From Pyrinomonadaceae bacterium (GTDB lineage Bacteria; Acidobacteriota; Blastocatellia; Pyrinomonadales; Pyrinomonadaceae): a DNA stretch of 64,000 nucleotides. The notes under the pieces were generated by a model that made no database searches, was not told the DNA's origin, and worked only from the letters and a program-made list of their open reading frames with translations. Positions 16,591 through 51,943 of this stretch are shown here, one piece after another (position 1 is the stretch's first letter; each line of letters begins with the position of its first letter). The position numbers and the translations under genes were made by a program. The stretch lies in contig DASUNM010000027.1 of NCBI GenBank assembly GCA_036277115.1, forward strand, positions 744,001-808,000. Reading direction: 5' to 3'.

Positions 16591-18108
16591 ATGCACTACC
16601 ACTTAATCGGCATCTGCGGAACTGCGATGGCTTCGCTTGCGGGAATGCTGCAAGCGCGCGGCCATCACGTGACTGGCTCCGATGAGCACGTCTATCCGCC
16701 GATGTCCACGATGCTCGAGAGTCTGGGCATTCCGATCATGCGTGGCTACAAACCGGCGCATCTGTATTTCTCCCCTCTCCGCGAGCGGAGAGGGGTTGGG
16801 GGAGAGGTCGACAACTCCGTTAACCCCACCCCTAACCCCTCCCCGCTTGCGGTGAGGGGAATACCTGATTGCGTCATCGTAGGGAATGCGATCCCGCGTG
16901 GCAATCCCGAAGTTGAAGAGACATTGAACCGGCGGCTTGTTTATCGATCTCAAGCTGAAGTCGTCAAAGAAGAGTTCATTCGCGGCCGCCGGTCTCTGGT
17001 AATCGCCGGCACGCATGGCAAGACAACTACGACAAGTCTGGCCGCCTGGGTAATCGATCAGTGCGGCCTGAATCCGTCGTTTCTGGTCGGGGGCGTGGTG
17101 CAGAATTTCGGCGTCAGCTTTCGCGTGCGCGAAAGCGACTACTTCATCATCGAAGGCGATGAATACGACACGGCCTACTTCGACAAAGGTCCGAAGTTCA
17201 TGCACTACCTGCCCGAAATCGCCGTGGTCAACAATATCGAATTCGATCACGCGGACATTTACAAAGATCTCGATGCGGTGAAACTGGCATTCCGGCGGTT
17301 AATGAATCTGGTCCCCGGCAACGGAAAGTTGATTGCCGGCTGGGACAGTCCGCACGTGCGTGACGTCGTCGGGTCTTTTGGTGAGAAGCTTTTCACCCAA
17401 CTGGAAACGTTTGGCACCTGCGAAGATGCGAAGTGGCAGGCGCGCGACATTCGTTACGCCGGCGGCATGACACACTTTAGGGTTCTCCGTGAAGGAGCGC
17501 CGTGGGCCGAGTTTCAGACGCCGATAATCGGTGAGTTCAACGTAAGAAATTGTCTGGCGGTGATCATCGCCGCTGACGCCTGGGGCGCAGACCGCAAATC
17601 GATCTCTGACGCCCTCGCGAGCTTCCAAAGCGTCCGTCGCCGCTGTGAAGTGCGCGGGGAAGTAAGCGGCGTAACTATCATCGACGATTTTGCCCACCAT
17701 CCCACGGCGGTGCGCGAGACTCTTGCGGCGCTGCGCACGAAGTACGCCGGCCGCCGGCTGGTGGCCGTGTTCGAACCGCGTTCGCGCACGTCCTGTCACG
17801 CCACCTTTCAGGACCTTTATGTTGATGCCTTCGCGCCGGCTGATTACGTGATTGTCTCGCGCGTTTACGATGCGCAGCGCGCGGCTGAAATGGGTGGAGT
17901 GCTCGACATTGAAAGACTGATTGAAGACATCGCGGCGACGGGCAAACCATCCCACGCCATCACTGAAGTCGATGACATCGTCGCGCAGTTGCGTAAAGAG
18001 GCTCGCTCAGGCGATGTGATCGCGGTCATGTCGAATGGCGGGTTCGGTGGAATTCACGAGAAGCTGCTCACGGCGCTGTCAGAGCCATCTGCGGTAGCGG
18101 GTGGTTAA
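16591..18108 (+). CDS. mpl: UDP-N-acetylmuramate:tripeptide ligase Mpl, with in-frame repeat insertion
   Basis: 505 aa. HLIGICGTAMASLAGML and YPPMSTMLE open the Rossmann domain; GTHGKTTTT near residue 145 is the ATP P-loop; VEFD-like NNIEFDHADIY and DDFAHHPTA follow as in Mpl. The enzyme ligates recycled L-Ala-gamma-D-Glu-mDAP to UDP-MurNAc in the cytoplasm. Residues 61-90 are encoded exactly by a 90-bp palindromic repeat that interrupts the region between GYKPAHL and PDCVIVGNA, which are close together in ordinary Mpl. The rest of the protein looks intact, so it may still work. It begins 36 bases after gmd. Confidence 0.92.
   Translation: MHYHLIGICGTAMASLAGMLQARGHHVTGSDEHVYPPMSTMLESLGIPIMRGYKPAHLYFSPLRERRGVGGEVDNSVNPTPNPSPLAVRGIPDCVIVGNAIPRGNPEVEETLNRRLVYRSQAEVVKEEFIRGRRSLVIAGTHGKTTTTSLAAWVIDQCGLNPSFLVGGVVQNFGVSFRVRESDYFIIEGDEYDTAYFDKGPKFMHYLPEIAVVNNIEFDHADIYKDLDAVKLAFRRLMNLVPGNGKLIAGWDSPHVRDVVGSFGEKLFTQLETFGTCEDAKWQARDIRYAGGMTHFRVLREGAPWAEFQTPIIGEFNVRNCLAVIIAADAWGADRKSISDALASFQSVRRRCEVRGEVSGVTIIDDFAHHPTAVRETLAALRTKYAGRRLVAVFEPRSRTSCHATFQDLYVDAFAPADYVIVSRVYDAQRAAEMGGVLDIERLIEDIAATGKPSHAITEVDDIVAQLRKEARSGDVIAVMSNGGFGGIHEKLLTALSEPSAVAGG
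16771..16860 (+). repeat. 90-bp double-hairpin repeat inserted in frame in mpl
   Basis: The element has a first hairpin with an 11-bp perfect stem (CCCCTCTCCGC against GCGGAGAGGGG), a linker, and a second imperfect hairpin built on CCCCTCCCCGC. It covers codons 61-90 without a stop or frameshift. A relative, 87 bp long, lies between genes at 44905-44991 in the same orientation. Confidence 0.9.
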
Positions 18109-28200: not shown

Positions 28201-28392
28201 TCACACCTCGCCTCAGCGAGGTATCGTGGTGGAATAGCTGCAGTTGGGAAGGGTGGCTTGCCCCCGCAAGTTGGATGACTGACTACTGGTTACAAGAAGC
28301 TTCTGCATCCTTAACTGAGCGAATCGCAACAGCGGGGGCAAGCCACCCTTCCCAACTGCAATTAGTCTGACAGACTCGGTTGCGAGGTGTGA
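28201..28392. repeat. Nested inverted-repeat element (perfect 29-bp arms)
   Basis: The outer 11-bp arms TCACACCTCGC (28201-28211) and GCGAGGTGTGA (28382-28392) enclose perfect 29-bp arms at 28239-28267 and 28332-28360, with a 64-bp spacer. No coding sequence is inside. It fills the gap between two minus-strand genes. Confidence 0.9.
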
Positions 28393-32893: not shown

Positions 32894-33015
32894 GTGTCAG
32901 AACCCGGAGCGGACCGGGGTCCCCGCGCGGGCAGCCCGCGTGGGGTTGTGGATGCGACGGGATCGAACACTCAACTTGCGTAATGATCCGGTCGGACCGC
33001 TCGCGGTTCTGACAC
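32894..33015. repeat. 122-bp inverted-repeat element, reverse orientation
   Basis: The ends are GTGTCAGAACCCGGAGCGG and CCGCTCGCGGTTCTGACAC. Its core GGACCGGGGTCCCCGCGCGG is the reverse complement of the core of the elements at 46345-46488 and 51801-51943, so it is the same family turned round with altered ends. Confidence 0.82.
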
Positions 33016-44848: not shown

Positions 44849-44904
44849 GGCAAGTCCCGCGGATTAACGCGGATCGACATTTAGGCGGTGGCATGTTTTC
44901 GTTC

Positions 44905-44991
44905 TCCCCTCTCCGCTTGCGGAGAGGGGCCGGGGGAGAGTTGGCCGCGTCAAACCCCACCCCTAACCCCTCCCCGCGTACGGGGAGGGGA
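44905..44991 (+). repeat. 87-bp double-hairpin repeat, relative of the one in mpl
   Basis: It shares the first stem CCCCTCTCCGC/GCGGAGAGGGG, the block ACCCCACCCCTAACCCCTCC and the second stem with the 16771-16860 copy. It is 3 bases shorter, all in the linker. It lies between convergent genes (MBL and globin). Confidence 0.9.
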
Positions 44992-45030
44992 AACCGAGAA
45001 GCGAAACTGACTTTTGAAAGTGGCGTTCGG

Positions 45031-46344: not shown

Positions 46345-46488
46345 ATGAGGTCAGTACCGGGAGCGGTAGCGACCGGGTAGCAGATCTGATCAACGTGGGC
46401 TGAGGCTACTCGCGCACCCGGTCGCAACCACCACCTCCCGCGGGCTGCCCGCGCGGGGACCCCGGTCCTCTCCCGGTACCGACCTCAT
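46345..46488. repeat. 144-bp terminal-inverted-repeat element
   Basis: The 22-bp ends (ATGAGGTCAGTACCGGGAGC.. and its complement, ending in CCTCAT) differ at two bases. Inside is a GC-rich core with its own palindrome (CCCGCGGGCTGCCCGCGCGGG). A close relative is at 51801-51943. It sits between the anti-sigma and fasciclin genes. Confidence 0.88.
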
Positions 46489-51018: not shown

Positions 51019-51801
51019 GTGCCCGAAACAGAGATCCCATTCACAGAGAGCGGCAAAGGCATCGCGGTAGTTTTGCTGCATGGCTATCCGTTCGACAAAT
51101 CGATGTGGAGCGCGCAGCTTCACGCGATCGCAGACGCAGGCTTTCGCGCGATTGCACCTGATCTACGAGGACTAGGGGAGAACAAATCATCCGGTGAAGT
51201 CGCTTCGATGGATGACATGGCGCGCGATGTTGCGGCGTTGCTCAATCAGCTGGAGGTGGAGCAAGCCGTCATCTGCGGACTTTCGATGGGCGGCTACGTT
51301 GCGTTCGAATTCATGCAACTGTTTCCGGCGCGCGTCCTTGGCTTAGTCCTCGCCGGAACACGCGCCCCAGCCGACAACGATCAGGAGAAAGCGGGACGCG
51401 AGCAGCAGGTGCAGACGATGCTGCGCTCGGGGATGGTGCCGATTAGTATTGCTACATTACCGAAACTGCTCGCGCCGCGGACACTCGCCGAGAAGCCGGA
51501 CGTCGTTAAGCGTGTTCGCGCAATGATCACGACATCTGATCCAAAAGGCGCCGCCGCGGCCCAAAGAGGGATGGCTGCGCGACGCGATTACACGGACGAC
51601 CTGGGGAAGATTAATGTGCCGACGCTAATCATCGTCGGCCGTGAAGACTCGATCCGGCCAATCGCGGACGCGGAATTAATGCATCGGGGCATTCGCAACT
51701 CGCGTCTCGAAATCATCGAAGACGCAGCACACATGACGAACATGGAACAACCGGAGGTTTTCGATGAGGCGTTACTGACGTTTTTGAAGGAATTGACGTA
51801 A
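51019..51801 (+). CDS. Alpha/beta-fold hydrolase
   Basis: 260 aa, starting at GTG. VLLHGYPFDKSMW forms the oxyanion region, GLSMGGYVAFE holds the nucleophile Ser near residue 94, VGREDSIRP the Asp and EDAAHMTNMEQP the His of the triad. The family contains lactonases, esterases and dehalogenases; the substrate cannot be told. The stop codon is at the left end of a repeat element. Confidence 0.9.
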   Translation: MPETEIPFTESGKGIAVVLLHGYPFDKSMWSAQLHAIADAGFRAIAPDLRGLGENKSSGEVASMDDMARDVAALLNQLEVEQAVICGLSMGGYVAFEFMQLFPARVLGLVLAGTRAPADNDQEKAGREQQVQTMLRSGMVPISIATLPKLLAPRTLAEKPDVVKRVRAMITTSDPKGAAAAQRGMAARRDYTDDLGKINVPTLIIVGREDSIRPIADAELMHRGIRNSRLEIIEDAAHMTNMEQPEVFDEALLTFLKELT

Positions 51802-51943
51802 TGAAGTCAGTACCGGGAGCGGTAGCGACCAGGTCTCAACTAAGTCGAGATCGAGCTGGCCGCAACTGTACCCCGGTCGCAACCACCACCTCCCGCGGGC
51901 TGCCCGCGCGGGGACCCCGGTCCGCTTCCGGTACTGACCTCAT
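51801..51943. repeat. 143-bp terminal-inverted-repeat element
   Basis: The ends (51801-51822 and 51922-51943) are complements with two mismatches. It is the close relative of 46345-46488. It fits between the stop of the hydrolase and the start of the thioesterase, overlapping the last base of the stop codon. Confidence 0.88.

Follow-up and report, generated by a model that had tools for sequence, protein, structure and literature searches.

How a palindrome of about 90 bp could enter a conserved ligase gene without closing its reading frame, and what spreads such palindromes, are the questions raised by mpl in the window, by which we mean the whole stretch of Pyrinomonadaceae DNA analysed here (64,000 nucleotides). 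The gene (16591-18108, plus strand) encodes UDP-N-acetylmuramate:L-alanyl-gamma-D-glutamyl-meso-diaminopimelate ligase, with a product of 505 aa, insert included, which was matched by TIGR01081 with 443 bits (cut-off 389) and by the Pfam families Mur_ligase, Mur_ligase_M and Mur_ligase_C. The feature at 16771-16860 is a net in-frame insertion of 90 bp, corresponding to about 30 extra residues, as indicated by empty sites in relatives, by a family of copies and by its fold. The core of the palindrome spans 16772-16859, or 16768-16861 when the repeated edges TTCTC.../...GGGGAA are included, and it was predicted to fold at -74.1 kcal/mol (z = -9.5), a value equalled by none of 200 shuffled sequences. 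The mpl frame stays open and free of stops throughout, and the extra residues are high in Pro, Gly and Arg.

In the Mpl alignment the insert was missing from all 28 relatives in which the site was covered, ranging from the same genus to the same class; in one of them (G001) there is an assembly gap further downstream, the site itself being uninterrupted. The empty site of G006 reads ...YEASHIE-MPDCVIVGNA, in comparison to ...YKPAHLYFSPLRERR...AVRGI-PDCVIVGNA in the window, a net difference of 30 codons. The sequence-only reading had proposed a stop-free palindromic insertion in frame that close relatives would lack, and both points were confirmed. Identity to the orthologues covering the site rose when residues 61-90 were left out, for G006 from 78.4 to 83.4%. 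When Mpl was aligned to the solved structure 3HN7, residues 1-61 of the window protein corresponded to 20-80 and residues 91-498 to 80-519, thus all 30 residues are extra and located at a single point, in agreement with the earlier proposal that they separate segments adjacent in ordinary Mpl proteins. Among relatives, this site falls in a loop whose length varies, directly before the strand VIVGNA, which supports, indirectly, the surface loop that had been predicted for it. The ends of the element are inverted repeats, which in a MITE would be accompanied by a target-site duplication; because the length of the surrounding loop varies among species, neither the exact insertion base nor a target duplication can be read at mpl, and the position given as codons 61-90 is accurate to within a few codons. 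An AlphaFold2 model of Mpl alone was uninformative (pLDDT 34). An assembly artefact is unlikely, since the insert is embedded in a contig of 960 kb and about 50 dispersed copies match it. The insert is presumably a passenger tolerated in the loop of an Mpl that probably remains active.

Beyond what the sequence-only reading had noticed, the palindrome in mpl belongs to a genome-wide family. Searches with Blast and a covariance model found about 50 distinct copies of this element of about 88 bp in the 4.85-Mb genome. Every copy is composed of two inverted units, each with a C-rich hairpin and then a G-rich tag, and the aligned copies read CCCCTCTCCGCnnGCGGAGAGGGG, TTnGGGGGAGAGG, a variable centre, AACCCCACCCCnAA and CCCCTCCCCGCnnGCGGGGAGGGG. 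On the basis of the alignment of 39 copies, the first hairpin unit in mpl, CCCCTCTCCGCGAGCGGAGAGGGG, was located at 16772-16795 (plus strand), followed by its tag, TTGGGGGAGAGG, at 16796-16807 (plus strand), which is conserved among copies. The second unit is inverted (minus strand), with its tag at 16822-16838, reading AACCCCACCCCTAACCC on the plus strand, and its hairpin at 16836-16859, reading CCCCTCCCCGCTTGCGGTGAGGGG on the plus strand and forming part of direct repeat D4. The second copy in the window is found at 44902-44992 (repeat families D4 and D5, 90-93% alike), and an ORF survey identified no long conserved gene running through it. Rfam returned for the hairpin only sub-threshold matches to microRNA precursors, which we took as chance.

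The window holds other repeats as well. A separate family of about 144 bp is present at 46345-46488 and 51801-51943 (94-96% alike), with a third, inverted partial copy (arm 32896-32961); its sequence is unrelated to that of the mpl element. At 28232-28367, two 36-nt arms that are 92% complementary form an inverted repeat with a spacing of 64 nt.

About 14 copies of the element are traversed by long ORFs, and in 11 of these 14 we recognised domains on both sides of the copy. The hosts with flanking domains are mpl, an ATP-dependent NHEJ-type ligase, SelB, PolX, a multihaem cytochrome, Mfd, ArgRS, a TPR/cyclase protein, Lhr (with a half element), TruB and a Hint/DUF559 protein, and the three less certain ones are an AddA-like protein, a VWA protein and a histidine kinase. 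In-frame copies of sister species were found in UvrA (L213 and L207, two species, same site), FeoB (L205 and L214, two species, same region) and Tgt; the shared UvrA site and FeoB region suggest either that copies have been retained for a long time or that one landing site was used more than once. Insertion in frame into conserved genes, together with the absence of the mpl copy from relatives, is the behaviour of Rickettsia palindromic elements (RPEs), to which the sequence-only reading had likened the insert. In this respect the likeness stands, whereas the anatomy is closer to that of a REPIN or REP dimer, and the claim that an RPE-like insert in another phylum would be novel had to be dropped, as in-frame REP palindromes outside Rickettsia were published in 2013 for uvrA, recB, DNA ligase, tRNA synthetases and truB (PMC3733652). 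What is new here is the link to a partner gene, DUF559, described below.

Repair or recombination genes account for 5 of the 14 in-frame hosts (binomial probability of 5e-6 to 4e-4 for a background of 2-5%), a test that assumes the background share, uses a small count and groups the genes post hoc. The same gene classes were reported in 2013 for unrelated REP families (PMC3733652). This recurrence of gene classes, and the UvrA copy that two sister species retain in frame at the same site, would suit an insert selected as a functional addition to Mpl, in the form of a regulatory loop or an RNA hairpin, rather than a passenger. We regard such a function as most improbable, given that only one species has the mpl copy, that about 50 copies lie at unrelated sites, and that the copies have 3.49 open frames out of six (dinucleotide shuffles: 3.44) and lengths distributed 14/13/12 modulo 3. 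Lacking an excess of open frames and being random in length modulo 3, the element is not built for translation, and selection for translatability was rejected on these grounds; its few stops follow from a composition rich in C and G. The linker that holds the ArgRS copy is different in each of the relatives, and the loop in Mpl is variable in length. The in-frame copies are therefore best read as survivors in tolerant loops and linkers.

As to what spreads the element, two inverted hairpin units and many dispersed copies (about 50) are the hallmarks of a REPIN (PMC3116915), and the genome contains nine Y1_Tnp genes (L072-L080), with a partial element copy at one of these RAYT loci (L072, 3233-3271). 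An ordinary REPIN moved by a RAYT (Y1/HUH transposase), to which the DUF559 link would be incidental, could account for these observations. However, the full element flanks none of the nine Y1_Tnp loci, the hairpins beside the RAYTs (in 4 of 14 windows) have other sequence, neither the GTAG nor the CGTC tetranucleotide is conserved in the alignment of 39 copies, and it is DUF559 genes that the element flanks instead. A RAYT as mobiliser thus appears improbable, and since no full copy was found beside the nine loci, the positional test did not support it. Given the hairpins of other sequence near some of these RAYTs, a separate REP system may coexist with the element in the genome.

The association with DUF559 was seen at several loci. 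In G000, a DUF559 frame (PF04480, 95 bits) within an FAD monooxygenase gene that also contains a Hint region has a full element copy immediately upstream and a degenerate half copy downstream; elsewhere, L063 retains a vestige of this DUF559 start together with the accompanying element. G014 belongs to another genus and has just two full copies in its genome, one on either side of its DUF559 gene, meaning that the element shares its ends with a candidate autonomous element, as would be expected of a MITE. The FAD monooxygenase gene that carries the intein-like Hint region, with the DUF559 nuclease inside, is located at 139-2169 of L025 (G000) and 1222-3294 of L234 (G014). The Hint_2 match in this gene is weak, and in G000 no clear C-terminal part of the host follows it.

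The hairpin also occurs in other phyla. Among the matches listed, the pattern CCCCTCTCCGCNNGCGGAGAGGGG recurs across many phyla, and a scan of GTDB species DNA, likewise among the matches listed, placed the hairpin in Chloroflexota, Cyanobacteria, Pseudomonadota, Myxococcota and other groups. Of 114 hairpins across phyla, 98 had the tag GGGGnn(A/T)GAGG next to them, in comparison to 0.7% of random windows. Within 861 kb of loci that had been selected by the hairpin alone, the four DUF559 matches among those listed were all located 29-71 bp from it. We also counted perfect GC-rich hairpins (stem of at least 9, loop of 2-8) within 400 bp on each side of 54 DUF559 loci. They occurred in 69 of 104 windows adjoining DUF559, in comparison to 3 of 99 windows 900-1300 bp away (p = 9e-24, for loci that are not fully independent where they share a genome or genus), and in only 2 of 53 control windows beside mpl orthologues. 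The 25 loci from other phyla came from genomes picked for holding the hairpin, and the 29 loci of the same phylum were not so picked; this same-phylum set alone (Acidobacteriota side) gave 33/56 against 2/53 (p = 1e-10). A qualifying hairpin was absent at 13 of the 54 loci. Copy number pointed in the same direction: in genus g8, a local hairpin was present in 5-30 copies in eight genomes with DUF559 and in two copies in one genome without it, and no copies were found in six genomes of other genera. On plasmids and one viral contig carrying DUF559, hairpins at the same threshold were found in 2 of 6 records. On plasmid pAQ6 of Picosynechococcus PCC 7002 (L319, 1250-2150), a DUF559 gene is seen by eye amid short C-rich palindromes, such as CCCCCGATTCGGGGGCTAGGGGGC, which fall below the stem length of 9.

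Whole cassettes of the form palindrome-DUF559-palindrome were found in frame within restriction genes, namely those for HsdR (between the ResIII and SWI2/SNF2 matches), a Type ISP enzyme, two MmeI-like enzymes and an Eco57I-type methylase. A published link between DUF559 and palindromes was not found in the open-access literature.

To judge what kind of enzyme DUF559 could be, we considered the AlphaFold2 model of the L119 protein (5 sequences, pLDDT 80). In Foldseek the model matched 3HRL (E 1e-7) and the homing endonuclease I-Bth0305I (3R3P, 1e-4), then, more weakly, Vsr, and on this predicted fold DUF559 would be a Vsr/EDxHD homing-endonuclease-like enzyme. The resemblance to homing endonucleases, and the two cassettes within a Hint-containing gene, raise the possibility that DUF559 is a homing parasite which lands on palindromes already dispersed by something else. 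We find this doubtful, because G014 has a full two-hairpin element on each side of DUF559, not one element split in two, these being its only full copies, and because palindrome copy number tracks the presence of DUF559 within genus g8.

Taken together, position and copy number lead us to consider the mpl insert as probably a non-autonomous REPIN-like element that was spread by a DUF559 nuclease and not by a RAYT. For the broader proposal, that DUF559 nucleases mobilise a cross-phylum class of REP-like palindromes independently of RAYT/HUH enzymes, and carry their own gene in frame into hosts without splicing, we lean only slightly in favour. We infer that DUF559 catalyses the movement and that it follows a cut-and-copy route. 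The autonomous form would be palindrome-DUF559-palindrome, and the nuclease would cut or nick both at tagged hairpins and at the target, whereupon repair of the break could copy the palindrome, or the entire cassette, into the target. Copies in genes would persist only if the net length and frame allowed it, in a tolerant loop or linker, and the mpl copy may be such a survivor, adding about 30 residues to Mpl.

Several observations speak against DUF559 as the mobiliser. Hairpins of the G013 type differ in sequence from those of the window, G006 and G003 carry a few elements although no DUF559 was detected in them (G003 and G005 being fragmented drafts), and the genome encodes the nine RAYT-type genes mentioned above. 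Hairpins could also be drawn to DUF559 loci by some other property of those loci, and, as noted, 13 of the 54 lack them. In addition, a 2026 paper interpreted a DUF559 protein of Caulobacter as an enzyme of mismatch repair, with no mention of palindromes (PMC12907096); the mismatch-repair and mobiliser readings are not necessarily incompatible.

The spread of REP-like palindromes that have no RAYT needs an explanation, and the 2013 survey noted no dedicated transposase for the CGTC REPs (PMC3733652). The link to DUF559 names a candidate enzyme which can be tested directly and, as it joins C-rich palindromes to DUF559 across phyla, it offers a possible biology for a Pfam domain of unknown function. 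If mobilisation by DUF559 is true, it would constitute a second route, independent of RAYT/HUH enzymes, by which short palindromes spread. It also calls for explanation that independent families of elements end in frame in the same kinds of genes, namely those of repair, recombination and tRNA enzymes.

Among known systems, the element resembles REP dimers and REPINs in its two inverted hairpin-plus-tag units and its tens of dispersed copies (PMC3733652, PMC3116915), and it shares with REPs the presence of some in-frame genic copies in favoured classes, such as excision repair, recombination, ligase, tRNA synthetase and truB (PMC3733652). Unlike the GTAG and CGTC REPs, it carries its tag, GGGGnn(A/T)GAGG, on the far side of the hairpin, and it is linked to DUF559 in place of a RAYT. 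With the palindromic elements of Rickettsia and Wolbachia it has in common that it lies in frame in conserved genes which seemingly still function (PMC10969869, PMC4224334). The RPEs described in Rickettsia average about 150 bp (PMC10969869), whereas the element is C-rich and about 88 bp long, a distinction drawn from length and composition. The partner protein DUF559, by its modelled fold, would be akin to the Vsr/EDxHD homing endonucleases (I-Bth0305I, 3R3P) and to the DUF559 protein 3HRL. Known homing endonucleases are found in introns, in inteins or free-standing, and we know of none that is framed by multi-copy REP-like palindromes. There is also a parallel in organisation with the RAYT-REP units ('REPtrons'), where a small nuclease gene is framed by palindromes that it possibly mobilises and non-autonomous copies are found elsewhere; RAYTs are HUH tyrosine transposases, whereas DUF559 is presumably a nuclease of the PD-(D/E)XK type.
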